Below, one piece after another: positions 16,441-64,000 of a DNA stretch of 64,000 nt (its first letter is position 1; the number at the start of each line of letters is the position of its first letter). The notes beneath the pieces are model-generated. The model was given only the letters and a program-made list of their open reading frames with translations. It made no database searches and was not told the DNA's origin. The DNA is from Isoetes taiwanensis (Eukaryota > Streptophyta > Lycopodiopsida > Isoetales > Isoetaceae). The DNA is taken from contig JAJEKV010000010.1 in the NCBI GenBank assembly GCA_021234155.1, positions 21,290,833 to 21,354,832 of the forward strand. The letters run 5' to 3'. The translations under genes were made by a program, and so were the position numbers.

Positions 16441-16515
16441 CTCTGATTATCTTATTCAAAGTTAAACTTAAATTTTCTGTAGCAGAACTTAGTTTAACTA
16501 GAACTTTAAACCATG
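16441..16515 (-). repeat. Duplicate of part of the LINE ORF1 at 12373-12446
   Basis: The phrase GATTATCTTATTCAA and the following 40-odd bases, including TTAAACTTAAATTTTCTGTAGCA, occur both here and at 12375-12420. A fragment of the L1-type LINE ORF1 is therefore present a second time, directly next to an ORF1 fragment of another LINE. Confidence 0.75.
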
Positions 16516-16793
16516 ATTCCGTTTATTCCACTGTTCATTTTTTTTTACCTCGGGTTTTTTCCCTATGTTTTGAGCAAGAAATTGTGTCCTGTATTTTTTT
16601 TGAATATGAATTGATGGCAATATTGCACCATTTATTGAGTGTGTTAAAAATTAGTGACAACAAAACCAAGGCAAAAAAGTAGAGTGTAGACTGGAAAGAG
16701 TTAAGGCCAAACTAATTTTGCATAAAAAAACATCTTCTATATTCATATAAATTATGTATATGTACAAGTATTTTTACAAATTTGAGTACATTT

Positions 16794-17404
16794 TCATTGA
16801 CAGTAATTTTTTACAACCAGATCATAGTTTGTAGGGTTTGCTTTTCCTTGCAAATCTGGTCTAACACTCAGGAAAGCAGGCACTGTAGGGGTTGATATGA
16901 GAAACTCAAACATCTGTAGTGTTTCTGCTGACACCCAATTCTCGTCATCTACATTATTTGGGTGCCATGTCGGAGGATTTATGCTGCTGTCTACGTTCAA
17001 GCAACACTTGATTGGGGTCATCATCCACCAAACATATCTGCTCTTCTAGAAACCCTTCTATCACCTCCAAGGCCTCATGTATATTCTTGATGAAGATATT
17101 CTTTGCTCCATGTTGTAGTCGACGAACAATCCCACAATTATCTTGATCTAATATAATATAGAAATCAAAGTTCTTCAGCTCTGGAACAACTGCTTTAATT
17201 TCTAATATATTGTTTCGCAACATGGATGACCATATACCAATATTGGCTCTGTCCTTCAGATGGCACACCCATTTCGTCTTTGTCTCTAGAACCCCTCCAG
17301 AAAAAGGAGTTGTAGCACAGTACTCTGCCTTGGAGAAGAACTTGATAAGAACTCCATTGAGGTCGAAGAGGATAAGTTTGTTGTTAATTGAAGTACTCTC
17401 CTCT
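16794..17404 (-). other. FCP1/HAD-like domain of copy 1
   Basis: After a TGCATTGTGCAG acceptor the frame reads NKLILFDLNGVLIKFFSKAE, then KTKWVCHLKDRANIGIWSSM, then LKNFDFYIILDQDNCG, then ICLVDDDPNQ. This is the order of an FCP1 homology (NLI-interacting-factor-like) HAD phosphatase: a hhhDhxG first motif, a W-S-x motif and an acidic third motif. The usual DxDx(T/V) nucleophile motif is DLNGV here, lacking the second aspartate, so catalysis is doubtful. After VDDDPNQ the frame shifts near 17020 and continues as NVDSSINPPTWHPNNVDDEN to a stop at 16794. The copy 2 equivalent carries NPPSCDPKN at the same place, which confirms the frameshift. Confidence 0.65.
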
Positions 17405-17460
17405 CTGCACAATGCATATTTCAAGTTAACAAATTTTTTTGATATTTAAGAATAATACAA

Positions 17461-17475
17461 TCGCACTACGTGCGA
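17461..17475. repeat. Short palindrome in the last intron of copy 1
   Basis: TCGCAC-TAC-GTGCGA, a 6-bp inverted repeat around 3 bases, lies inside the intron 17405-17521. It belongs to the same palindrome class as those at 19455, 19501 and 20737-21014. Confidence 0.85.
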
Positions 17476-17521
17476 GACATGCTAAATAAAGATCCATATA
17501 AAAAAGATCCGTATGACTTAC

Positions 17522-19406
17522 TCTTTTGTGGTGAAGTCACTTTTTCTCCCATCCTGGATGTCGTATCTTCTTCTTCAGCTCTGATAGAACTAGGGTCAGT
17601 TTGTTCAGGAAGAACAGAAGTACTCTGTATATCTGGTTCCTGTGGATTTACCTCAAGAATCTTCTCCTCTTCTGATTAGGCCTTTGCCAACTTCTCCTGA
17701 GCCTGTGGATCCATGATTGGTGGCGACTTTGATGGTGGACTTCGTGATTCAGTTTCACTTTCTTTTGAAGCGGACTTCTCATCAGAGACAATTTCTTCTG
17801 AAGTGCCATCCCCTGCATCCTCCTCCTCAGACTCTTGCTCTGCCTCCTTCTTCTTTCTCTCCCACTTTGCATCGTTTTGACCTTGCCAATTCTCCCTCTG
17901 TGCTTGCTTCCCTTGATATGTCAGATGATGCTTCTCTACATCAGGATAATACAGCTCCAGAAACTCTTTCTGCTGCTCAGTGGCTACCCATCCTTGAACA
18001 TTTCTGCCATTGGCTAGAGCTTTACGCCCAACCCTACCATTGACAAAGTAGTCACAAACTAAGATTCCCTTGGGCACAAATGTATCCACGAGGTAGAAAG
18101 CCAAGTTCGAGCTTAGCCTGTACTTGTTCACTGCACCTCCCTTCAGGCCAACCTGTTTGTACTTTAATTCCTTTTCACATTCCTCAGTGGTCAGATTAGG
18201 GGTAAGCTCATCGGTCCAGAGGTAATTATCCAAGCTCTCCTTCTCTGTAAATCTGAGTATCGGCTCAGGAAGCTTTTGGGGACCATACTTGTGTGCCTCG
18301 TAAAGCGCGTCTGCTACTTTATTTATGATCACGTAAGTGATCATTGTTATGCCATGAGTGACATAACTGTTCTTAGCAGGCGTCCCATCTACCAGCACCC
18401 TATGGTACACACTCATATTGGCCTCTGTTTGAGTGGTGGCCTGCAAGATCTTTGGATATTCCTCTGCAGGTTCAGACAGGAACACAAGTGTGATGTACTC
18501 TTGGGTGGTCTGCTTCAGACAATTTGAAAGCATAGAGATGTAGTAGTTTATATCCTGAGGGTATGTTCGACAATCCACCACAAACAATGAAGCTGTCTTT
18601 GGAGTCTGGGGTGCAACAACCAAAGAACCCTGATAGGACTTCATCATGTAGGTTTCTGATACAGACTCAGGAATGTCAAAGTCCCCACTGACTCTGCACC
18701 TCAGCTCCACACGGACCTTTGACGGTAGATGGGCTGGTTTTCCTTGTTCCTAGATTTATATGCTTGAATAAATCCAGGCGACCACTTCGAGTACCTGAGC
18801 AGGTCTTCATCTGTTATTTTCATCATGTCCAAGATACCTTGCTCAGCTAGGTTTTGTATTCCAGACATCTCAAAGAGTTCCTTTGAGATGGCCTCCCTCA
18901 TGACACGGAGGTCTTTCATGGACTTGCAGGCCTCTGGAAAGGATGGTACCTCTTTGATTTTTGAGACCTTCTTTACAAAGACTTGTCCATGTATAACAGA
19001 CTGGAGCACCTTGAGAATTTCTTCTTCCCTTAACCCCTGTGCACTCCTCAAGTCTGTAACTATAAAATCTTCAAGGGATCCTTTCTCAGGTTTCCCTGCT
19101 TTTCTTACATGCTCTCCTGCTATCCACTTGTTCCATACCTCATTCCATTTGTCCCATATATGATCAAGACTGAATACTATGTGGTAGAAATCTGAGGGGC
19201 CTTCCTTGGACTTCTTCTTCTTGGTGCCAGTTTCCTCTTCCTCCTTTGCAACATCCTTCTTCTTTTGTATGATGTCCTTGCTGATCATCTTAATCATTTC
19301 CTCGTAAGAGTTGTCTTTCTTCTTCCCCTGCTTCTTTCTTTTTGAAATTGGATGGCCAAGCTCAATCCATTGATTTCTAGCTTGTGTCAATTGCATGTGA
19401 TATGGT
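17522..19406 (-). other. Helical region plus methyltransferase-like domain of copy 1
   Basis: The exon begins after a TTCTTATCTCAG acceptor. A basic helical part contains YHMQLTQARNQWIELG, DFYHIVFSLDHIWDKWNEVW and CKSMKDLRVMREAISKELFE. The methyltransferase-like part follows: ASLFVVDCRTYPQDINYY sits where the DPPY motif (motif IV) of beta-class N4/N6 DNA methyltransferases is expected. About 150 residues later, VNKYRLSSNLAFYLVDTFV and GILVCDYFVNGRVGRKALAN then GRNVQGW sit where K-P-x-x-L-L and D-P-F-x-G-x-G-T-T are expected. The fold order is right, but both catalytic and cofactor motifs are eroded, so methyl transfer is unlikely. The exon ends at a GTAAGT donor (17521). Confidence 0.5.
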
Positions 19407-19454
19407 CTGAGATAAGAATATAAAACCATAAGTTAGTACCATATAGATCTCCAT

Positions 19455-19515
19455 TCGCGCATAGCGCGAGTATGCCGAAGAGAGAAAGTAAAAAGCTTAC
19501 TCGCGCTACACGCGA
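19455..19515. repeat. Two short palindromes in the intron after the ParB-like exon
   Basis: TCGCGC-ATA-GCGCGA at 19455-19469 and TCGCGC-TAC-ACGCGA (one arm mismatch) at 19501-19515. Both lie between the ParB-like exon and the helical exon of copy 1, close to the acceptor. Confidence 0.85.
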
Positions 19516-19587
19516 GACTGCAGACCAATGTTGGGCTGCAGACTAATGTTGGACTGAACAATAAGAAACACAAGTTGTATTGTACCA

Positions 19588-20461
19588 CCCTTGCAGTTGT
19601 ATTCAAGTCTGCACTTATTGTAGTCAGTACAAGTTGAGGCGTGTAATGACTAAGGATTCGACATTGCCTGTAACTGAAGTTCTCCCTGTACTCCTTGGCA
19701 CCTATCTTATCTATCTTCTCTATAAGCGCCTTCTCTGCCTCAACTGAGCGCTGCCCATCAATGACAATGTAGCGCACCGTGTCGCTGTTCCTTAAGTCAT
19801 CCCATGTCTTCCATGGGTATGGCTTATCATTGACTGAGTCCCATGGTAGAACATCAGCTGGATTTGGTACTGTGGTGAGATATTCAACCATGGACTTCTG
19901 TATCCTCAGGGCATGTTTGGGATCAAAGATCCTAGATATGAAAGATGCACTCGGAGATCTTATCAGCTTGTCAATAGCTATCCTTTTTGTTACATCCAAA
20001 CCAAGTGGATACCATTGCTTGAATTTCATAAACTTGTCTACAGCATCAACCTTGGATTTCTTTTCAATATCCGTTTCCTTCACTGGCTTTGGCAAAGATA
20101 TTAGGGGCAAAGTTTCTGACTCAAGTGCATCGCCACTACCACCAAAACTAGATATGTAGAAGCTTGGAGATGGTTTCTTCTACAAACTTCGTCGGACTAC
20201 AGATATTCCTTCACATACAGAACGAACTGTATGGTGTGAGCCTTCAATGGGCCAGCCATACTTTGTAACACCGTCTGCTGTTTTATCTGGCCTGAATCCA
20301 TTTATACCTGCATTGTATTTGGAAATGATGAGATTCTTCTTTACGGTCTTCTCTATTATGAAGACACAGATGTGGTCATCAAGCTCCTCGCATGAAAGAT
20401 CAACCCTACTTTTTTGAAGGCCGCTCATCTTTGTTCTCCCTTGAATGCAGGACCACGTCAT
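19588..20461 (-). other. ParB-like domain region of copy 1
   Basis: From about 20461 down, the translation contains DDHICVFIIEKTVKKNLII and YNAGINGFRPDKTADG (no family recognised). An in-frame TAG at 20180-20182 follows, then KKPSPSFYISSFG. The ParB-like part follows: KLIRSPSASFISRIFDPKHA, then ADVLPWDSVNDKPYPWK, then YIVIDGQRSVEAEKALIEKI, then SYRQCRILSHYTP. ParB N-terminal domains have the order 'I-x-P-S..N-R', a helix, 'P-I-x-V', then a G/D-x-H/Q-R-x-x-A loop; the IDGQRSVEA loop fits this and the related DGQHR motif. The copy 2 equivalent, VIIDGQHSVEAQKAL, is even closer. The nucleotide- or DNA-binding role is inferred from family resemblance only. Confidence 0.55.
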
Positions 20462-20736
20462 ACTTTGAGCCTGCCCTGCTCACAGTGACATCCCTCATTT
20501 AAAACTATCTCTGGCAAGTCCTAACTTAGCTCACATGTTATGACTCTGCGGTCATCAATTAGCTTTATGCCAAGAGTTCGATCTATCTCCTCAGTCTCTT
20601 CTTGTACTACCTTGGGGTCCTTCCTGGGTTTTTTTGATGGTGCAGAAGTTGATGTAACTAATGCTCTCTTGGAAGTTGTAAAATAAATAATCAAGTTAGA
20701 CATTGCTGAGGTAAGTAAGCAACTTGCAGCAACATC

Positions 20737-21014
20737 TCGCGCGTGGCGCGACAAGTCTTTAAATTCTGAGAGCAATTTTTCAGGATTCGCGCGTAGCACG
20801 AGTCGAAGGATCCAGGACGGTAAGATAGATGGAATGTGACTTCTCGCGTGTAGCGCAAGAATTCAATTTCCATCTCTCTTACCGTCCTCGCATAGAGTTG
20901 ACCTCGATTATGACCTTGACTCGCGCTGAGTCGCGCGGAGCGCGACTCAAAGGACAATCCTACTCTTACGCTTACTAAGAGCGATAGAATCTGAACTTCT
21001 CGCGCTAAGCGGGA
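20737..21014. repeat. Cluster of short TCGCGC-NNN-GCGCGA palindromes upstream of the ParB-like exons
   Basis: Members: 20737-20751 (GTG spacer, perfect), 20787-20801 (GTA, one mismatch), 20844-20858 (GTA, diverged), 20921-20930 (half site), 20931-20945 (GGA, perfect) and 21000-21014 (TAA, one mismatch). They are spaced irregularly at roughly 50-70 bp in what appears to be an intron near the 5' end of copy 1. The arms are conserved while the 3-base spacer and the surrounding DNA vary. Confidence 0.85.
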
Positions 21015-21978
21015 GAAGTCCATAGACCGACGACACTCCACAGAAGGCATAATCATAGAAACACATTAAAGAGAGTATGCTTCATAAAAAAAAAGAAAAT
21101 CATAGCACAAGGAAGCGTAACCCCCTTCCCTGTCTCTGATGATTACAATTGAAGATTAAGATACTAGGAATTATAATCACCGAGCATTGAAGATTCACTT
21201 AAGACTAAGCAGAAAACCCTGAACACATAATCAAACAAAGACTAAGCTGCAAACAAAGACAAGCCAAGAAGCAGAGATGCAGGGTAACATTAATCTAATC
21301 AAATCAGAGTTGCAGAGTGACAGAGTTAATCAAAGAGTCTCAGAGTTTCTAAATCTATTAATAAAGTTAAGCACACAAGCAGAAAGTTTCTAAAACCTAT
21401 TAAAAATAGAGTGACAGAGTTCCTCATCTATTAAGAACTCGAACATACTAACCTTTAGTTGCCATATCGAAGTGCTTGAAGCTCTAGAAACTGGAATTGA
21501 ACTCTGTTGCAGCTCGAGAAGCTCGAGTGAATCTCAAGAAGCTCGGGAAGCTCAAATCGAATCGGAATTGTTGTAAACAGGCTGGAAATGAAGTAGGATA
21601 GCTCGGAATGCTGGTAGCGCTCGAGAAATTTGGATCACTTAAGAGATCACTCAAGAAGAGTGCATCGGTTTCGAAAGGCGCTCGAAGCAAAACTTCTGGA
21701 AGAAATTAGGAATGAAAAAATGGGATTCAAATTAGATTGGAATTAGAAAATGTGATTATTACACGGGTCATACAAAAAATTAATGAATAGACGCCTGCCA
21801 TTGAACACTTATCATTGTTTAGGAAAACAAGAAAATTAATCTCGCCCGCAATATAAAATTTAAAAACTTTTAGCCCGTCCGCGAATATCCCTTTCCCCAA
21901 CTACTTTTCAATCATTGGTCTGTATTAACCATCTATTTTAAAAATGCCCGCCATTTAATTTGTGTTCTTGGCCTCGCA

Positions 21979-22790
21979 TTGGATCATAGAATTTGTGTTT
22001 CTCTAATGCGCCTAGAGAAACACAAGAACTGTGTTTTCATTACTGGCTGCCCCAACAACTGCTTTGGTAGATTCACAGTGAAAGAACTTGTGGAAGCCCG
22101 ATCAATCTACAAGGAGAAAACTCATGACGCTAGAAAAACTTATATTTACAATATCATACAACATGCATTTGGGCCGTCACCTGATGTCAGGAACATGCGA
22201 TTTCCTATTGGTGGGAAATGGATATGCAGCAGTGCAGTGACAACTATACTAGGTATTTCAGCCTCTACATGGTGGAGATGAAGGCGGGACCAAAAGAGAG
22301 GGGCTCAAATAGGTTGGCATGGTAATCGGGGACAACCCCCAGGGTGCTTGCAGCTCAGAGTTTATTCGAGAAGTTTGTTAACTATCATGCTGAGAGTATG
22401 CCTCACAAAAGTGCGGTTGATGAAGAGGGATACAGGAAAGTAGCTCGAATGTTGCCTGCATATTTCACACAAAAAGTGATTTTACAAATGATCAACAAAC
22501 TTTTAGAGGAAATGGGTGTGGACAAGATTTCACAATCAGCCTTCAGCAAGCTCTGGAGTAAGCATTTTTCAGATGTCAAAAGAATGCAATATAACAACTT
22601 CTCAAAGTGCAATATAGGCGTGGATTTGTTAGATAAGTTCGAGAAGTCAAAGCTTGAGATGGAAAGATCAGCGGTTCGGAAGGAAATGAGAATTCACACG
22701 ATGGAGCAAATGTCATGTCGATCAACATACTGGATGTGGAGATGCTTGTCTACAATGGAACCAGAGAATTTTCTACATATGTGTGAGTCA
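21979..22790 (+). pseudogene. Transposase-like fragment
   Basis: Two open parts, 21979-22281 and 22344-22790, encode peptides such as CFGRFTVKELVEARSIYKEK followed by RNMRFPIGGKWICSSA, and later SQSAFSKLWSKHFSDVKRM and NNFSKCNIGVDLLDKFEKSK. An N-terminal 'cysteine, then GKxIC' part, an 'F-x-K-L-W-x-x-H-F-x-x-V' segment, and 'N-x-F-x-K-C-x-x-x' before a basic coiled region are typical of a diverse transposase-like family seen in lower plants and algae. I cannot name the superfamily with certainty. No catalytic triad is present, the two parts are in different frames, and the ORF runs into LINE-derived sequence, so it is a truncated relic. Confidence 0.45.
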
Positions 22791-53915: not shown

Positions 53916-54487
53916 GAAATGACCAAGAAATTAGACATAGAAGCCAAGACCTGAATGCCTTATTATTTCATTGCTTTTCAATTGTAGTTAATCCTTTTGA
54001 TGCCTGATTATTTCATCGCTTTTCACTATGCTTTCGCTGGAAAGCCAAAGCAAAAGCCGAATCCGACTATCCCGAGCCGACACGTTAGCTACCTCGCCTT
54101 CACTTCCCATGTTTCAGACGTCTATTGCTGCCATTGCTTTTCACTATTCTTTGGCTGGATTTCAGAAGCAACCATCATCCAATTAATTTGGGATTATGTC
54201 AACTCCAAAATCACGCCAACCTCCTGTTGTCGTCTAGGGGGTTTTTGTTTTTTTTAATCTGTTTTTTTTTTTAATTATTTTTGAACTTCATAAATAACAT
54301 AAGGTTGCAGTTCCCATGTGTCGTTTCAGATGCGAATTGAAATATGCAAAAATGAAAGGCAAGTTGCCAAGACAGATGACACCAAAATTGAAGAGCATTG
54401 AGATGAAAATAATAGGTTTGATAATAACATATTACATTATTTGCGAGGCAATTGGAGACCCGAAATTATGGATACATGACACAAATA

Positions 54488-55137
54488 TCATGCAAAAATA
54501 TCATATATTCCAATAAAACATGAAGGGATCAATCTATGTTTTTCCACGTATTTAACAAGGTGTGGTTCCATGTCAGCCGTTCTATCTAGTTCTGGGTGTG
54601 AATATAATACTTCACGCACTGTCGTCCCCATAGCCAAATTATTCATAATAGATATAAACTTCACCAGAAAATCATCTGTCGCAAAATTTTTTGGATCACA
54701 AGATGGTGGATTCAGGGCCTGCGTTTGATTGTAGAAGCATTTTAGAACATCATCATCTACTATGATTATAGCATCATTATTCTCGATACCAAGTTTATCC
54801 ATCATGTTACTCAAGTGTTTAATGAAGATAGGCTTGCCTGTTAGATCCTTGAGATTAGTGAACTTCACACATTTGTGTTGATCCCAAAAGGTCAATCAAT
54901 GTCTACCCATTTCCCCCAGTGCCTCCACAGTATCCTTGATTTTTCGGAGTTCCATGGATGACCAAATACCAACTCGAAATAACATAAATGCCTCATCTAG
55001 CATCTCCGTTAAGTGTGGCCGCGGATAGATCCACTTGGAATTTGATTCTACTAGTGTCTGGTGAAACTGATCTCTAGCCACTTTATTTTTCGGAAAAGTC
55101 TTACAAAGAACTCCGTTTAGGTCGAACACCACAACCT
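54488..55137 (-). other. FCP1/HAD-like domain of copy 2
   Basis: After an acceptor in TTGCGTATCTAAG the frame reads KKVVVFDLNGVLCKTFPKNK, WIYPRPHLTEMLDEAFMLFR, VGIWSSMELRKIKDTVEALG; then an in-frame TGA; then TFWDQHKCVKFTNLKDLTGK and IENNDAIIIVDDDVLKCFYN, NPPSCDPKNFATDDFLVKFI. It is a better FCP1-homology match than copy 1 (first motif, W-P-R-P-h-L, WSS, QxxC, K-D-L, VDDD). Again DLNGV replaces DxDx(T/V), so the absent second Asp is shared by both copies and probably old. Confidence 0.7.
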
Positions 55138-55232
55138 TCTTAGATACGCAAGGAGCTAAATATCAAACATGTATTTGGTCATCAAGATATGATTAACATG
55201 CACACCCTTATATTATACATTGCAACATACAA

Positions 55233-55368
55233 AAGCGCCAGGCGTGATCTGAGTTAGGCTTAACTAAATCGCGCTCGGCGTGATTTAGTCTGACAATGAA
55301 ATGTATTCAAAGCACGCTTGGCGTGATTTAATTAAAACTGAAGATAAATTAAATCACACATGGCGCGA
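55233..55368. repeat. Four palindromes in the intron before the FCP1-like exon of copy 2
   Basis: 55233-55247 (AAGCGC-CAG-GCGTGA), 55269-55283 (TCGCGC-TCG-GCGTGA), 55312-55326 (GCACGC-TTG-GCGTGA) and 55354-55368 (TCACAC-ATG-GCGCGA). They are in the intron equivalent to 17405-17521 of copy 1, which has its own single palindrome. Spacing is about 36-43 bp. Confidence 0.85.
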
Positions 55369-55821
55369 TTTCATCTACAAGGCCATACCTATCATCTTCA
55401 GTTTCACTGTCGTCGTCGGCGTCATTCTTCCCTTCGCCACTCTTAATCTCCATGCTCTTCTGACTGTTAGAATTGCTATTTTCTATTAGTTCCTCTATGT
55501 TCTTCACAACTGACATTATTTTAGTGTTGATTTGGCAAACCTGGAAATCACTAGAGTGAAGGGGTTATCAATGACCCCTTCACTCTCGGTTGCCTTATCA
55601 ATTAGATCCCTGCTAACCTGTGAATTTATTGTATTGCATCACCCGCAAGGGAGGCAAGGATATCCCCCATGTTCTGCATTATCACATTATTTGAGCAGCC
55701 AGTTTAGCAGGCAGTTGCTCATTACTTTCCTTATCAGGCTACGGATTACTAGTTCCCTCACCAGAACCATCGTCCATCTTTGAGTTTGACAAGTCCACGA
55801 GGCTTTTGATTGCTGAAGATT

Positions 55822-56390
55822 TCAGGTTCCATAAGAGCCTTTAGGAGATTTGTTACGTACATGCATGAGAAATGGTTCAAGAAAGTCTTTTGCCTGCTCA
55901 TTACTCACAAAGAAGTGACATCTTCTAACACCCATAAGAGCCTCTCGGGCAATATAACCTCCAACATGAAGCTCCAAGCACGTTGTATCAATTGGAGCAA
56001 AAGCCGCGACGAGGTAAGCAGGCAAAGACAGGGGAAAACTATTTTTATTTAAGGGGCTCTTCTCCTTAGTTAGTAGCTCGTACTTGATTTCACCACTTAG
56101 GAGAGGGTCTCAATCCTCATCCCCTTCTGACTCATCATGTTCCTGATCCTGATCCTGATCCTGATCCTGATCCTGATCCTGATCCTGATCCTGATCCTGA
56201 TCCTGATCCTGATGATTGAATATAGTTGTTAAGTTTGGATCATCTAAAAGAAAACATTCCCATGCACTGCTATTGTCACCCTTGGCCGTAGCATTATCAT
56301 ATTCATCGTCTGACAGCATGGATATCATAATGAAGATCACATGTGCCATCTTCCTTGCTGTTCGCAGCTCATTATCCCTAACATCATATA
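55822..56390 (-). other. Second half of the methyltransferase-like domain of copy 2
   Basis: DNELRTARKMAHVIFIMISM aligns with copy 1 THGITMITYVIINKV. Later, KSPLNKNSFPLSLPAYLVAA, FAPIDTTCLELHVGGYIARE, ALMGVRRCHFFVSNEQAKDF aligns residue by residue with copy 1's VNKYRLSSNLAFYLVDTFV, GILVCDYFVNGRVGRKALAN, GRNVQGWVATEQQKEF. The glycine pair in ELHVGG stands where the F-x-G-x-G cofactor motif is expected. Within this half lies an expanded Asp-Gln repeat (56142-56213). Confidence 0.5.
56142..56213 (-). repeat. Hexanucleotide (GATCCT)n, encoding Asp-Gln repeats
   Basis: About twelve perfect GATCCT units, read on the minus strand as CAGGAT... giving a (Gln-Asp)n tract in the methyltransferase-like exon of copy 2, followed by EHDESEGDED. 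The frame is preserved across the expansion. Confidence 0.9.
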
Positions 56391-56514
56391 TCCCCCCCCT
56401 CCCCTTTTCGTAGCCAGAGACCCCTCAAACTTTGGAAGTCATGGCCACAGAAGATGGGCCAGCCTGGGAAACCCAAGGCGAGGGGCCGCACGCAAACGGT
56501 CCCAATCAGCCATC

Positions 56515-57880
56515 ATGGACAGGGGAGAGTCATCCTCCATGAAGAAGGAAGCTCGGGCTAAGGCTAAGACCCCCTCAGCGCGGCCAGCCCGGCCGGAAGG
56601 GATTGATTGCTCAGACCACGCAGGAACTCCTGCCTCGGCAGAGAATTGGAGCCACATCAAAGCGGGCGTGGAGGCTAACAGTGCCCGTATTGAGGCTAAC
56701 AGTGCCCGCCTGGTTGGCATGGCAGTGGAGATGGAGTCCTCGGCACCCCATGTGCTTAGAAGGCAACTGGTGGTCGAGAAGAACCACATCACAGGTCTGG
56801 AGACCCGCACACAGCAAGTAGAAGATGGCCTTGTCCTGGCACATTTCGAACGGCAACAGGCCAGGCAGGAGCTCGCTGACATGCGGGCCCGCCTAGACTC
56901 TGTGTTCATCACTCTGGACACCATGACACATGAGAGGGAGCGGGCAATGCATGAGACGATGGTCACGGTGTCTCGGCTTCAGTCAGAGGTTGAGGAAGCC
57001 ACCACCATGGCACGGGGAGCGCAGGCCATTATTACGCATGCCCGCATTACGCCTTCGGGTTCTTGAGTACGATCGAGGCAAAGAAGCCCGCCTCGACGTC
57101 TTTGCGGGGGCTCGAACGCCCTCGCTACTCGAGCCTTGAGCTCCGGGGGTTCGCGGGCAGCCATCCATAAACGGGGCAGGGGTCTCCCTACCGAGGTTAA
57201 GTAGTCAGGCTGCGGCCCGGTCTGGGCGGGGGAGATGGCCCAGCGGCGGCCCGAGCCACAAGAGCTGTGCTCCCCCACTTCCGCAGGCCGCCGAGGATGC
57301 GGCTCGGACCCGCTACCCGCCGCGGCCTCCCGCGCCCGGCAGCCAGGACCCGCGCCTGCTGCCCCCCACTCAAGCCACCCCACGCCATCCCGGCCACCAC
57401 CACCACCACCCGGCCTGAGCCCCGACCCTCGCCCACCTTTGACCCGCCAAGAGAACTCCAAGAGCCTGAGGGCGGAGAGGCCACAATCACGGTAGTCCGA
57501 GGCATGCGGAAGAGGAGGGGAGAGTCTGCGCCCACAACATCCGAACACATTCTCGATCGGATGACATTCCCATGGCGATTCACATTTCCGAGCAGCCCGC
57601 CATGGGGCTCGGCCCGGGTCGTGACCGCATTGTCATATTCGGCGGTTCGCGGATCGCGCGGGTCGCGTGATGCCATATTGCGCCCGAGGCAAGATCTTTG
57701 AAGGGACATCCACATCGTGGGCCGGGACCTCACACCCGCTTTACAGGAGGCACGAGCGGGGAGCTTGTCGGGGTCGAGGCATTAAGCCACCAAGGGGGTG
57801 CCGCGAGATTGGTTCGAGGCGGGATGCACATTTTACGCCCGACCACTGCTGCTGCGCCGGACCCCGCAGCCCCCAACCGG
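56515..57880 (+). pseudogene. LINE ORF1 (coiled-coil, RRM-like), frameshifted
   Basis: The first part is 56515-57066, starting MDRGESSSMKKEARAKAK, with a long heptad-like coiled coil (VEANSARIEANSARLVGMAV to MHETMVTVSRLQSEVEEATT). A Pro-rich linker follows (57240-57480, partly in other frames). Then comes ATITVVRGMRKRRGE and SEHILDRMTF, a further shift, and at 57700-57880 IHIVGRDLTPALQEAR then FEAGCTFYARPLLL. Coiled coil, RRM-like core and C-terminal domain is the usual ORF1 plan. Frameshifts at about 57066, 57600 and 57700 make it inactive as read. Confidence 0.6.
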
Positions 57881-58059
57881 TGAGCGTGGCCCCGCTTCGC
57901 TTCTCCTACCCACGGCCCCCTTCTCCTCTCCTACTCCTGCTCCCTCCACGACCCGCCCTCTCACCACATCTTTGCCTCCGCTCCATCTACTTGTCACTTT
58001 CGGCCTCGCTTCCCGTCCTCCCCCCACTGACTCGGTTTGCGCATACCCGCGGCTGGCGA

Positions 58060-61000
58060 CAAATAGGAATTGTGCCTCCGGGTGGTCTCATGGAATTGTC
58101 GAGGCTCCCATTGGCGAAAGGGGCGATCTCAACTCCGTGGCGGCCGATATGGATCTCATCTTTCTCATGGAGACATGGGAGCATCTTTGGCCGCAGGCTA
58201 CGTCTGCCGGGTTACCAACATTTCTCGAGCTTCAATACACATGCACAGACGGAGGGGGTCATGGTGGGGTTGCTTGCTACTACCGGACAACCTTGGCACA
58301 TTCGGTTACCCTCCAGAAGACAGACAGACACAACCGGTACTTGTGGGTTCGTGTGCATAATACCAGTGGCAACCCTCTTTTTCTGGCCGCCTGTTATTTC
58401 CCTCACGCAGAGAGCACCTTCTATCGCAGCCACTCCGGATAGGATGGACCCTTATGTCGATCTATATGATGACATACTGGCCCGGCCAAGCGATGGGTAG
58501 GGTCGTCCTTCTTGGGGATTTCAATGCACGGACAGGAGTAGAGCAGCCCATGAGACTTGACCCCCTCGCTGACGATGTCCTGCAGCTACGTCCCGCAGAG
58601 GCAACCTGGCCACGAGGATCGGATGACAGCCAGGTCACTCGCTTTGGCAGACAGTTGCTCCTGCTATGTGGTATTTTTGACTTGATAATTTGCAATGGCC
58701 TGTCACAGTGCAGATGCAGACAGGACAATCAGGGGGGAGGGTCTAGTGTGGTGGACTATGTGCTCGTAGTTGCGCAAGATATGCATCTCATCAGTCGTTT
58801 CCAGGTGGGCAACGACAGCCGGGATGAGGAGGTCGACTCAGATCACCTCCCACTTTATTTGGACATGGTTTGGCAAGCCGCGAGAACCCCCACTATGGCA
58901 GCCCCTCACCATCCTCAGTTGCGACTAGATTATGAGCAGGCAGAGGACTACGCCGAGATGCTCATGGACGCCCTGCCAGCAATTCTACGGACCCCCACAC
59001 TAGAGCAGCCGAGATGACCCGGTTGACTTCGCTATTACGGGATGCGGCCGGCGGGGTGCTTTGCGGACCCCCCCCCCCCCTCCCTCCCCCCCTCGCCTTT
59101 CGGGGACAACAACATTGCCACGTAACCCATGGTTTGATCGCGAGTGTAAAGAACATAGCGCCCGGCTCCGTCACATTTTGGATCCAGTGCCGCTTGCGAG
59201 GCCACCACCGATCATCCCCATCCGAAGGAGACAAAGGCGCGGTACCTTGCCGGGCATCGAGGGAGAGATGTTCGGCTGGCTTGGACACTCATCCTCGAAC
59301 CTTTTGGCCTTGAGTGCTTGAATGCCGGCCCAACCTACGGGGGAGATCACACCGCGAGGCGGTGGGAGCGATTGCTAAGCGGCTCTATGACCCACCCGGG
59401 GGCGCGTCGCCCATACCCCCACGGGATGGCCCCCCATTGGTTCTTGCGGAGGAGGATGATGTTGCGGAGGGCCCGCGAACGGTGGCTAATGGGAAGGCGG
59501 TGACCTCGATGGTATCTGGGCCGAAGTTACTCAAATGGGCGAGGCGGCGGCCGGTGCCAATCCTCACTACCCCTGCTCCAGCGAGCATTGCGGGAAGGTT
59601 TCCCTCGACAATGGACCACAAGCAAGATTGTCCCCATTCACAAGGGCGACCCACCCACCTTGTCGGCCAATTCACCGGCGATCATGGTCGGTTCGGTATT
59701 TGCCAAACTGTTGGGCATTCTCGAAAGCGGCCAGGTTGATCCGGTTGGCGGGGCAGCAGAGATGTGCGAGCCCTCATACAAGCAGGCTTTAGACCCCGCC
59801 ACTCAACAATTGACCATATCTTTACACTGCGGGCACTGATTGAAGACAGTCAGAACCATCGGCAGAACTTGTATTGTTGCTTTGTGGACTTCGCGAAGGC
59901 TTTTGATACGGTCCCCTAGGAAAAGCTATGGGCTAGACTGCGTCAACTGGGGCTGCCGTTGCCTGTGCAGAATGCCATATACAGGCTGTATGAGAGTTGT
60001 TTTGGCAGGATGCAGCCGACGGGCCAAGTATTCACCAGTAGTATCAGGGTCCGGCAGGGCTGCCCCCTCTCACCAACACTTTTTGGCCTCTACATTGATC
60101 AGTTAGAGCCCTGGCTTACTGAGCATGGGGGGGGATGGCATACAGCTTTTGCACCAGATCATCCGCCAGCTCATCTATGCGGACGATGTTGACCTTCTGG
60201 CCCACACCCCAGAAGCTATGCAGTCTCATCTTGATGCCCTAGACACATTCTGTCAGGCTACAGACATGCGCGTGAATCTGGCCAAGACCAGGGTGGTTCT
60301 CATATCCTCTTCACGCCACCCCACGCCTCCTGCACTCACATATCGGGGACAGCCTGTGGAGGTCACGCCCACCTACAAGTACCTAGGGGTGGAGTTTCCC
60401 TCCTCGCTCTGTTGGGAGGCGTCCATCCGCTTGCGGGTGACAGCAGGTCACCAGGCAGAGCTCTATGATTGGGGCCATCAGTCACATCTGTTTCGGGCAC
60501 TGGTCGAGCCTGTCCTTCTGTACGGGATCGAGGTTTGGGGCCCGGTCATCTCTTTGGCGACCTGGAATGACTTGGAGCAGGTGCAGAAGGCATTTTTGGC
60601 ACGGGCACTTGGGGTGAAACCTTCAGTCCCCTATCAGATTCTGCTGCAGGAAACTGGATTCTTGCCGCTTCAGCGGGCAGCCCTTGATAGACACATCGTC
60701 TATTTTCAGAAAGTGGTTAATATGGGTGATGCTCGGCTCCTGCACCTGGCTTACGCTGTGGCAATGGGCCCGCAGCGGCTCAGGGCCTGTTGGAGGGGTA
60801 AGAGAGATCAGTGGTTTGCCAGATCGAACATGCGAGGACAGGGTGCATGCGGTGGACCGCGAGGCCCGATCGTGACAGCCTGCGGGAGTACCTGGATGCT
60901 TGCTTCCTTGGCAAGCTCTGGGACCCCGGCACTCTAGAGCAGGTCAAAACGGCCCATTACAAGGAGCACATCAACCCCGTGTTAGCCCGGGGCCCGCAGC

Positions 61001-61180
61001 TCTACCTGCGTTCCCAGCTGCCCCTGAAAAAGCGCAGACTCATTGCCTCCATTCGCACAGGTGCCCACCATCTTCGCATCGAGACGGGCAGGTGGATTGG
61101 GGAGCCCCGCCAGGACAGGCTCTGTCAGTGCTGTCAAACGGGTGCCATTGAGGATGAGTCTCACAATTTCTAGAGTTGCC
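58060..61180 (+). pseudogene. LINE ORF2 (endonuclease, reverse transcriptase, C-terminal CCxC/H)
   Basis: Endonuclease: VVSWNCRG (58070-58110), then DLIFLMETWEH, GHGGVACYYR, AACYFPHAEST, VVLLGDFNARTGVE (58500-58550), SSVVDYVLV and SDHLPLYLDM (58740-58860). Reverse transcriptase: CCFVDFAKAFDTVP (59870-59915, followed by a stop), VRQGCPLSPTLFGLYIDQLE (60040-60110), the active site LIYADDVDLLAHTPEA (60170-60220), VNLAKTRVV, TYKYLGVEF and EPVLLYGIEVWGP. The C-terminus has ASIRTGAHHLRIETGRW and LCQCCQTGAIEDESH (61040-61170). Frame breaks occur at about 58440, 59020-59900 and 60130. All catalytic motifs are visible, so the copy is relatively young. Confidence 0.85.
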
Positions 61181-61509
61181 CAACATTCAGTCAGATCCGG
61201 GCCAGATACGCTCCCTTAGTACGGCCGGACTTGCCCCTACATTTGCTGATGAACACACCGTCAGTACGTGCTCTGGGGTCGTACATTCAGGAGGTACTGG
61301 ATCTGCGAGCTCACCTTTGGCCCCGCATGGCTGCCCGCTGATCAGGCACTACGGGTGCGGTGCATGAGTGTATATATTTGTCACAGTTTTTCCCTCGAAA
61401 ACTCTTCGGGGCAGGGGTTTTTTAATCCGGGTAGTAATCCGCTTGCTGCGCTTTTGTATTGGGTCCCATAGACCGATTGGTCTCCGTGGACTTCCTTCCT
61501 TCCTTCCTA

Positions 61510-62480
61510 ACTTTGAGGCACTCCAGATTATGAGCAGGGGATAGTGCATGCAGATGTGAGTCACCTAAAGGACAAATGATGATAATAGTGAAGGACCTCT
61601 CAGTTGTCAATCCTATACAGCTGGTAAATTAGATGCCATAGTCCTTCTGCTTCATCCCCATATCTCCTCTCCCTCCTCTATTGACGAACACAAAGAGTGA
61701 TATGTTTCTAAGGCAAGTAGTTGATTCAAGCACGAGACCTTTGTACCCAATGGAGATTGAATACTGGACAATGTCTTCTTCTTCAGTAAACTTCTTCACA
61801 AGGGTCACTTTTCTTCTCAACTTGGCCAGTACCTTAAGGGGCAGAGTTTCTTTATGTTTTGCATTTTTAGCCTTCCAATTCTTTAGAAAGTCCTTTGACC
61901 AAAATACAAACTTCTTGATGTCATCATTACTGACTTTGTACTTGTCCAGTAATCCAATTTCAGATAATGCCACATCCCCCAATAGCCTTTGTAACTCAGC
62001 TCCTACAACTGACTTCATTGTACGTACATCCTTCACATGGCTGCAGCACTCAACGAAGGACATCCTATCCTTAGAAAGCACTCTTCTTGTACAAGACCTC
62101 CTTTTTCAGGCACTAGTCTAACACCCAAATGGTCTCAGTGTCGTCTAGCCCGTGAGTCTTTCTCATCTGTCACATTCAGGTCAAAGATGCTTACATCAAC
62201 AGGAGGCTCCCGATCCATGGTATCTGGCACTTCTTTTGTGCATAAGCGTCCCAGAATTCATTCCACTTGAGCCATACGGCCTCCTTACAGAAGACAATCT
62301 TATATGAGTCTGTTGGACCTGACATGCTGGATATGCTATCAGAAGGATCTACTTCTCCTGTATAATTGTCTGCGATAGAGTTCGCTCCAGCAGCCTCAAC
62401 ACCTCAAACTTTGGTCCGCCCTATTTGGTGGATAATGGGCAGCCATATTCCACCCATTGTTGACGAGCATGGTGTAGTTG
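61510..62480 (-). other. Helical region and first half of methyltransferase-like domain, copy 2
   Basis: The exon begins after TTCTGTTATTGTAG with PYMEQLHHARQQWVEYGCPL (copy 1: PYHMQLTQARNQWIELGHPI). It later has YKIVFCKEAVWLKWNEFW in another frame, then CSHVKDVRTMKSVVGAELQR, FWSKDFLKNWKAKNAKHKE, TLPLKVLAKLRRKVTLVKKF and ISLFVFVNRGGRGDMG, where copy 1 has ASLFVVDCRTYPQD. A frame change near 61620 is followed by ERSFTIIIICPLGDSHLHAL (copy 1: QEYITLVFLSEPAEEYPKIL). The LINE begins right after this. Confidence 0.5.
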
Positions 62481-62513
62481 CTCCATGTATGGACTACAAT
62501 AACAGAAATTGGA

Positions 62514-62960
62514 TCAGTATAAAGTTGCACTAATCTCAGCCATATCTGCAGGTGAAGTATTGGCATCCAAGAGTCGACACCTCCTATATGCATAGTGATT
62601 GTAGAACATTGTTTGGCCTGTTTGTTCTGCCTGCCTGATAAGGGCCTTTTGTGCCTCAACTGAATGCTGCCCGTCGATGATGACGAATTTAATATCATCT
62701 TTTCCTAATAACTCATCGGCGTTCAACCACATAGCAGGCTTGTTCGTGATCGAATCCCAAGGTAACACATCTGCTAGCATAGGCATTTGACCTGGATTAC
62801 TAATCATGCTTTGAACAATCTCCATGGCATGTGCTGGATCATATCTTCTGCTAACATAAATGGAGCTTGGTGAACGGATAAGGCGCTTCACACGGAGCTA
62901 AAAATTGTCTTAAGACCACATGGATAATGGTCAGAGTACTTATTTAGCTTGTTCATGGCC
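62514..62960 (-). other. ParB-like domain, copy 2
   Basis: MKRLIRSPSSIYVSRRYDPA, MPMLADVLPWDSITNKPAMW, IKFVIIDGQHSVEAQKALIR, then YRRCRLLDANTSPADMAEIS. Both the LIRSPS-x-x-x-x-SR-x-xDP start and the DGQHSVEA loop are shared with copy 1. The DGQH(R/S)-x-E-A loop is the strongest link to the ParB/DGQHR superfamily. The frame is open throughout this exon, in contrast to neighbouring parts. Confidence 0.55.
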
Positions 62961-63660
62961 TCTAGTTGCGCCACCCTGTCCTGTTCATTCTCAAACTTGG
63001 AAGCCTCTATGCCTTCGACAACCGCAGGTTGAACATCCTTCCCCAGATCAGGACCCTCCTAGAAGCTTTCAAGTCAGCTAATTCTCTAGCCTGCTGCAAG
63101 TAGTGACTTGGTGTCGGTTTATTGAACATGCCTCTATGCACAGCTGTAACCCCCTGGCAAATAGATATTGGTATAAATTGCTACATTATAGTGGGTCAGC
63201 TATACTTAAAACATGTCTCACCGTTCACATCTGTCTTCACGAAAGTATCTTTGTATGCAATAGCTCTACAATAAACCTGATCAGATGTTTCTTCTGCTTA
63301 TGTGTCATCTCCAGTTGGTGTCGTCCTCTTCCTCACAAGAGATTAGGATCCCTTGTTTGGTCATCTTATTTGCTTCCTTTTTCCTCGAGAAGAGTGTTAA
63401 GTCGAGCTTGCCATTTGTCTTGGCGAGGTCAACGAACCACTCAACACCCTCATCCATTTCCTCTTTGGGGCATGCAAGGTCAGTGATTGCTATAAGAATA
63501 GGCCCTTCATCGTCTAAGGTGAGATCATATGATATTACATCTGGGTCGTCTACCCTTGGCTTCTTTCCAGAAATAGACCCCAAATTATTAGGGGTTTTCT
63601 TCCTCTTTGGCGCTGCAAAAGAAGATGAACATAATTTAGAATACTTTTCTGAACATGAGA

Positions 63661-63963
63661 ACACGCTTGACGTGAATGTAAAGCTAAATTAGTATAATTC
63701 ATGCTTGGCGTGTTTCTAGCTCCTATTATAGACCATGCTTGGCGTGAATTTATAGCTAAATCAGTATAATTCACGCTTGGCGTGTTTCTAGCTCCTATTA
63801 TAGACTACACTTGGCGTGAATTTAAAGCTAATTAGTATATTTCACGCTTGGCGTGTTTCTAGCTCTTATTATAGACCCTTTATCCATCTATATTTTACGT
63901 TACGTATCCTTATTGAAGACTGCTATCTCTAATTGTCAAACCCCCAATTCACGCTGGGCGTGT
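63661..63963. repeat. Palindrome cluster TCACGC-TTG-GCGTGA near the 5' part of copy 2
   Basis: Members at 63661, 63699, 63733, 63771, 63805, 63842 and 63949 (15 bp each). Arms are TCACGC/GCGTGA or GCGTGT and the spacer is TTG in all but the last (TGG). From 63699 to 63860 they alternate in two orientations inside a 71-72 bp tandem unit containing GTTTCTAGCTCCTATTATAG. The position corresponds to 20737-21014 in copy 1. Confidence 0.85.
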
Positions 63964-64000
63964 ACCCCTCTGTTTAAAACTACTAAGAACTTATTCTAAA

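Follow-up and report, generated by a model that had tools for sequence, protein, structure and literature searches.

Does a gene that joins a ParB-like, a DNA-methyltransferase-like and an FCP1-like region belong to the lycophyte Isoetes taiwanensis itself, or to a mobile element within its genome? The question is raised by a stretch of 64,000 nucleotides (contig JAJEKV010000010.1, positions 21,290,833 to 21,354,832; hereafter, the window), in which a sequence-only reading had proposed two homologous minus-strand genes with the same motifs in the same order. Both genes are present, copy 1 at 21465-16794 and copy 2 at 63970-54488, and in each of them a ParB/DndB-like region is followed by a methyltransferase-like and then a NIF/FCP1-like region. 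When the two copies were compared within the window by tblastn, four stretches were found to be homologous: the ParB region (E = 2e-32, 43% over 124 amino acids (aa)), the middle stretch (E = 1e-12), the methyltransferase-like stretch (E = 3e-7, 33% over 72 aa) and the FDLNGVL stretch (E = 1e-9, 29% over 157 aa). We are nearly certain that the gene is an accessory gene of a DNA transposon with terminal inverted repeats (TIRs), and the window copy is a broken example of a passenger gene on a high-copy element.

The gene is carried by transposons with terminal inverted repeats

Copy number and element ends were determined by scanning the genome (1,658,258,908 bases in 1110 sequences). At least 126 matches, the window's own among them, were found for the methyltransferase-like exon of copy 1 (114 scored out of 2987 first-look candidates), and many contain stop codons. 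For the ParB-like exon of copy 2 there are at least 150, again counting its own; many are 80-90% alike, many are open and many contain stops (150 of 3707 candidates scored). The copies represent two element families, family 1 with copy 1 and family 2 with copy 2, which are 43% alike in the ParB region. A right-end region is common to 13 of 20 fetched family-1 copies (10 kb each) and to the window copy. The terminus ...AACGGAATCGTGGTT or a close variant was found in 12 of these 13 copies as well as in the window copy, with unrelated sequence beyond it, and is altered in L028. The inverted form of the same end lies at the other side of L024 and of the copy on C985. The family-1 TIR pattern matched the genome 246 times (122 forward, 124 reverse) versus 0 for a reversed-pattern control, and the family-2 TIR pattern 2292 times (1154 forward, 1138 reverse) versus 0 in the control; the TIRs are ~30 bp long.

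The C985 element, covered by the neighbouring stretches L034 and L016, is complete, measuring 10,104 bp from TIR to TIR with AGAG on both flanks. L024 is an internally deleted family-1 copy flanked by ATAG, and L053 a deleted family-2 element flanked by AATT. All three elements with both ends seen carry 4-bp target-site duplications (TSDs), and TIRs stand at both ends of each, which identifies them as class II (TIR) elements. The right end of family 2 is equally constant, all 39 other scored copies (of 3287 candidates) ending within 8 bases of window position 54170. The transposon part of our reading is firm. In the window, the elements are:

16509..22775, minus strand: family-1 transposon remnant, right end at 16509, with ~2.2 kb missing at 22043/22044 relative to L016
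16509..16530, minus strand: right TIR of the family-1 window copy, 10 bases of the TIR lost
54170..64000, minus strand: family-2 transposon copy, right end at 54170, TIR at 54170-54200, left end beyond the window

The family-1 remnant continues across the deletion point, since window 22044-22644 matches C952 and L016. Its left end was not found: blastn with the left-end stretch of C952 and L024 gave no match to the window, nor did a 24-base family-1 TIR pattern with up to 3 mismatches allowed. Other kinds of mobile element were considered for the gene. A retrocopy of the long terminal repeat (LTR) or long interspersed nuclear element (LINE) type is ruled out by the kept introns, the TIRs and the 4-bp TSDs, and a Helitron by the TIRs and TSDs; 5' truncation, considered early on, was abandoned after the left TIR had been found.

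Both genes in the window have decayed. Copy 1 is broken: a TAG interrupts its frame at 20180-20182, a sense codon in a relative, the frame changes near 18735 (~18.73 kb), and the NIF part lacks 10 residues around the PRPG motif that relatives retain. Copy 2 is interrupted by a LINE-like insertion at about 56392-61496, an insertion we infer because L036 joins 56391 to 61497 with 6 bases between. The parts of the two genes are:

16794..21465, minus strand: accessory gene, copy 1, several exons, with the in-frame TAG at 20180-20182 and the frame change near 18735
19571..20143, minus strand: ParB/DndB-like region of copy 1, IDGQRSVEA at the loop; 43% over 124 aa with copy 2; relatives of copy 2 reach DndB at E = 8e-5 at best
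18740..19402, minus strand: linker of copy 1 between the ParB-like and methyltransferase-like regions, conserved among copies, without a family match
17850..18719, minus strand: degenerate beta-class methyltransferase-like region of copy 1, predicted from hhalign and a motif scan; YLVDTFVPKGILVCDYFVNGRVGRKAL stands where motif X/I lies, and DPPY is missing
16954..17388, minus strand: NIF/FCP1-like HAD region of copy 1 (FDLNGVL...GIWSSM...VDDD), 10 residues missing; homologous to NIF-matching relatives, no Pfam match of its own
62517..62897, minus strand: ParB/DndB-like region of copy 2, IDGQHSVEA; DndB at E = 0.015, relatives to 8e-5; at least 150 genome matches including itself
61629..62105, minus strand: middle and start of the methyltransferase-like region of copy 2, by homology to copy 1
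55825..56109, minus strand: motif-I part of the methyltransferase-like region of copy 2, sharing 33% of 72 aa with copy 1
54488..55162, minus strand: NIF/FCP1-like region of copy 2, NIF at E = 3e-6 for 54896-55162, above the curated cut-off

By eye, the insertion in copy 2 is a GC-rich LINE-like element with endonuclease- and reverse-transcriptase-like frames on the plus strand; family-2 relatives, L036 for one, lack it. A tandem repeat of ~73 bases (63658-63877), close to where copy 2 starts, seems to vary in unit number in L036 and L037.

Some arrangements of copies elsewhere in the genome were also noticed. At G000:C1062:1300053-1315406, two family-1 copies ~13.7 kb apart with equal TIR spacing resemble a tandem duplication, and at G000:C1029:11715915-11791080 six listed family-1 TIRs stand in the same orientation within ~75 kb. 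Inside a family-1 copy (joined L030 and L014, 1962-7025), direct repeats of 560-580 bases, 93% alike and ~4.5 kb apart, probably mark a nested LTR retrotransposon. The deleted family-2 element L053 is 4.3 kb long with perfect 31-base TIRs. Of the accessory gene it has kept the 3' tail, and inspection of its frames by eye showed no piece of DUF7869.

A phosphatase-like tail, an eroded methyltransferase-like part and a ParB-like region

The sequence-only reading had placed ParB-like, eroded methyltransferase and FCP1-like parts in one gene. This held for the tail, where the curated NIF cut-off is exceeded, and for the middle, where profile comparison by hhalign gave 68% probability, and held more weakly for the ParB part, where the DndB match lies below its cut-off. 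Judged by sequence comparison, our assignments accordingly run from firm for NIF to moderate for the other two, with ParB the weakest.

NIF (PF03031) matches eight of nine aligned members at E ≤ 1 (best E = 2.5e-8), copy 1 being the member without a match, and copy 2 scores 27.4 bits against a curated cut-off of 21.8. Relatives have the PRPG, WSS and DDD motifs of the NIF/FCP1-SCP phosphatases. Active NIF/FCP1-type enzymes have D-x-D at motif I; unlike them, all eight rows that cover this motif have D-x-N. A search of solved structures with the NIF alignment gave a hint of UBLCP1 (0.87), not significant. A DLNG motif and the signatures GVWSS and DQxHC occur in some plant NIF proteins, which would point to capture from the host; the tail is of a eukaryotic type and may have been taken up in this way.

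The methyltransferase assignment depends on profile comparison. Pfam N6_N4_Mtase (PF01555) matches one of 11 members of the region, at E = 0.021. We compared a transposon motif-I/X profile with an alignment (A4) of five of the 22 phage loci that a third, distant lineage of the gene matches (below); they come from five phages, three annotated and two not, and all five have a significant N6_N4_Mtase match. Because A4 had been chosen through the third lineage, the decisive test is the one from which that lineage was left out; it gave 68% probability (E = 4.7e-5), with 100 column-shuffled controls at or below 0.8%. With the third lineage included, the probability was 94% (100 column-shuffled controls at or below 3.3%), and the ParB and NIF alignments gave 0.1% and 0.2% against A4. 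A longer methyltransferase-like alignment (A2) compared with phage methyltransferases more weakly than the motif-I part, at 43% locally and 2% when forced end to end. By profile comparison, then, the stretch is a putative beta-class methyltransferase motif I/X region. Families 1 and 2 have an eroded motif I, CDYFVNGRV or LELHVGGYI, and the catalytic motif IV, [DNS]PP[YFWH], was absent from every forward frame of 11 stretches in three lineages, with family 2 covered in pieces, an intron being able to split the motif, and the position of motif IV not being confidently alignable. Loss of methyltransferase chemistry had been suggested as probable from the letters alone, and the absent DPPY-type motif and eroded motif I uphold it: the methyltransferase is very likely dead.

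The third lineage was seen once, at L031:866-4259 (plus strand), and is 23% identical in the ParB region. It reads VLDFFSGGSFSRAALCEGY, with VLDFFSGGS close to a canonical methyltransferase motif I, and among PHROG families a DNA methyltransferase scores best (E = 0.0052). Against phages it matched 22 records at E 1-8, 18 of them annotated as methyltransferase or methylase, of which 16 are Gordonia phages sharing one match. Pfam gave no family match apart from one stray (E = 0.45), and solved structures a non-significant hint of RsrI methylase (E = 0.9). Its ParB region had no plasmid match and matched eight phage records, none annotated as ParB.

For the ParB-like region, DndB (PF14072) matches four of 11 members, all of family 2, with a best E of 8e-5 and 22.3 bits against a curated cut-off of 29.1; the ParB region of copy 1 has no DndB match in Pfam. 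The likeness to DndB is weak and repeated, centred in family 2 on the DGQH loop. DndB, a bacterial protein tied to phosphorothioate modification, has been placed in the ParB superfamily (PMC10853773). The PHROG family 'ParB-like partition protein' was matched by three family-2 sequences at E 0.02-0.05. A plasmid search gave seven chance-level matches (E 0.5-8). Four of them, similar to one another and all from Vibrio, are DndB or DGQHR proteins; the match with the highest score is not among these four. The family-2 ParB region matched only topoisomerase among phages (two records, E = 4). An NCBIfam search of the domains returned nothing useful, and searches of solved structures with the regions no relevant significant match.

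The DUF7869 partner gene and the Sola question

In the complete C985 element, the left TIR is followed by a DUF7869 gene reading toward it, a spacer of ~3 kb, and the ParB/methyltransferase/NIF gene reading toward the right TIR. The DUF7869 domain there (L034) is matched by Pfam at E = 1.4e-34. The family-1 remnant in the window retains part of this neighbour:

22044..22775, plus strand: fragment of the divergently transcribed DUF7869 gene, from the part before the DUF7869 domain, 88.7% (97 aa) and 75.8% (149 aa) alike to frames of L033 and L016

We asked how often the two genes are paired, counting a DUF7869 gene of the same family within 15 kb, among the matches listed, for 99 merged family-1 genes and 150 family-2 genes. 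A family-1 DUF7869 gene stood near 12 of the 99, 11 of these upstream on the opposite strand and one downstream on the same strand, versus 0.14 expected at random positions. A second DUF7869 cluster, whose identity to the first is 50-55% (a 38% piece was set aside), was found near 4 of the 150 family-2 genes, each time upstream and opposite, versus 0.13 expected. Two families thus show the order of a ParB-type gene and an opposite DUF7869 gene. Since links were counted among the matches listed, some true pairs have probably been missed. With 9902 first-look candidates in the genome (150 scored), DUF7869 is probably not confined to these elements. No paper naming DUF7869 was found among the open-access papers searched.

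By analogy, the DUF7869 protein is probably the transposase, and we think it fairly likely that the element is Sola-like. The 4-bp TSDs are of the Sola-type length. Sola elements have DDD transposases and 4-bp duplications, are present in Physcomitrella and seem uncommon in flowering plants (PMC10741241).

Known counterparts, proposed role and rival explanations

The closest described counterpart is Sola1-1_Ec32 of the brown alga Ectocarpus, a 21.5-kb element in which a gene opposite the transposase encodes a 1104-aa protein with ParB-like and N4/N6 methyltransferase domains; similar proteins are reported there for green and red algae, citing Iyer 2011 and Petroll 2025 (PMC12477816). Both systems are large DNA transposons with an accessory gene, opposite the transposase in the alga and the probable transposase here, that joins ParB-like and methyltransferase-type domains, as the green and red algal proteins are reported to do. 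The plant element differs in size (10.1 kb versus 21.5 kb) and host, and the likeness is one of layout and domain content. The algal methyltransferase is predicted to make N4-methylcytosine or N6-methyladenine, whereas the plant stretches have no DPPY motif; and no phosphatase domain is mentioned for Sola1-1_Ec32 in the part seen, whereas the plant gene has a NIF tail. Fungal DNA transposons of several superfamilies carry TET/JBP dioxygenases, thought to counter silencing (PMC12730594). These resemble the plant case as DNA transposons with a gene for a base-modification-type enzyme, and differ in that the enzyme is an oxygenase, proposed to be active, and not a methyltransferase.

Open-access literature on land plants, on FCP1 or phosphatase domains and on lycophytes yielded nothing relevant, the Ectocarpus paper being the sole relevant item. 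We know of no NIF tail in the green and red algal ParB-methyltransferase proteins. The earlier statement that the architecture is undescribed thus stands for the three-part form and falls for ParB plus N4/N6 methyltransferase, which is in print for the brown-alga transposon (PMC12477816). Three features are new here: a host among the land plants, the NIF tail and a methyltransferase that appears to be dead. The range of the algal ParB-methyltransferase accessory proteins thereby widens to a vascular plant, and the gene suggests that the methyltransferase part can outlast its chemistry and be combined with a phosphatase-like domain. In this way it provides a testable case of how large DNA transposons handle host silencing. 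DUF7869, whose function is unknown and for which the genome has thousands of first-look candidates, gains a partner gene as well. A prokaryotic origin was another option named in the sequence-only reading. When viral contigs were scanned with patterns A1, A5 and A3, and bacterial and archaeal genomes with A1, no relative was found, so that recent transfer from a phage or bacterium is unsupported.

Overall, the likely explanation is an accessory gene of a TIR, probably Sola-like transposon whose protein would serve the element. The DndB/ParB-like domain of such a protein would attach it to element DNA; the methyltransferase fold, presumably without methylating activity, may act as a DNA- or S-adenosylmethionine-sensing or dimer module; and the NIF/HAD tail, its second acid residue altered, might bind or slowly dephosphorylate a host protein. 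The net effect would be that the element is protected from silencing or that transposition is helped, a role we put forward tentatively.

Several observations weigh against this explanation. The complete element is a single family-1 copy, and no gene-bearing family-2 copy was seen with both ends. The ParB assignment lies below the Pfam cut-off and derives from family-2 members alone, the third-lineage ParB region has no Pfam match, and the unrelated DUF6742 matches five of 11 ParB-region members (best E = 0.012). The unrelated DUF3859 (5 of 11, best E = 0.029) and N_NLPC_P60 (4 of 11, best E = 0.026) match methyltransferase members about as weakly as the expected family does. Among the matches listed, no same-family DUF7869 gene stood near 87 of 99 family-1 and 146 of 150 family-2 genes, and two of the 99 family-1 genes stood near the other cluster's DUF7869, one on the same strand and one opposite (family-2 cross-links, 0); a large number of unlinked genes would, however, be expected from decayed copies too. 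The naming of DUF7869 as a Sola transposase draws on TSD length and layout and not on a comparison of Sola proteins. In favour of the explanation, pooled nonsynonymous-to-synonymous ratios (pN/pS) of family 1 were 0.46 for the methyltransferase (15 pairs), 0.50 for ParB (6 pairs) and 0.45 for NIF (10 pairs), and of family 2 0.55 for ParB (10 pairs), all from stop-free rows, which biases the ratio down, and uncorrected for CpG/methylation decay; one of the 10 NIF pairs stood at 1.46. These ratios fit a protein kept during spread of the element, including its methyltransferase part without the catalytic motif.

A more specific version of the proposed role is doubtful. A DNA-writing enzyme would have turned into a DNA reader and been joined to a captured, polymerase-CTD-phosphatase-like host domain (CTD, C-terminal domain), with ParB-like binding bringing the phosphatase or pseudo-phosphatase to the host polymerase or silencing machinery. 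The classic FCP1 target is the CTD of RNA polymerase II. If true, this would be an anti-silencing factor of new design, amplified with the element families in a lycophyte.

The protein might instead be part of the transposition machine, its ParB-like part binding the ends and its tail processing them like a polynucleotide 3'-phosphatase. PNK3P matches two of nine NIF-region members weakly (best E = 0.061), and the gene is accompanied by a DUF7869 gene in two families; however, NIF is far better supported than PNK3P (2.5e-8 versus 0.061), the second acid of motif I is Asn, and cut-and-paste transposases leave 3'-OH ends. We regard this as unlikely. The protein might also be a methyltransferase that still works and marks the DNA of the element, the activity suggested for its algal counterparts. 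This would account for the recognisable motif X/I region and for the third lineage, with its VLDFFSGGS and PHROG match (E = 0.0052); set against the eroded motif I of families 1 and 2 and the absence of a DPPY-type tetrapeptide from the 11 stretches of three lineages (family 2 in pieces, with the chance that an intron divides the motif), it appears improbable.

Finally, that the window genes, of mobile-element origin, now serve the plant as a domesticated family could draw on the pooled pN/pS below 1 in three domains and on long open frames in some copies, and is very improbable given at least 126 family-1 and 150 family-2 matches, many with stops, the common ends, TIRs and TSDs, and the broken window copy. 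Of the earlier proposal of a mobile-element-derived gene, domesticated or spread, the mobile-element origin is therefore retained, on TIRs, TSDs and copy number, and domestication is set aside, the gene being a passenger and the window copy broken.

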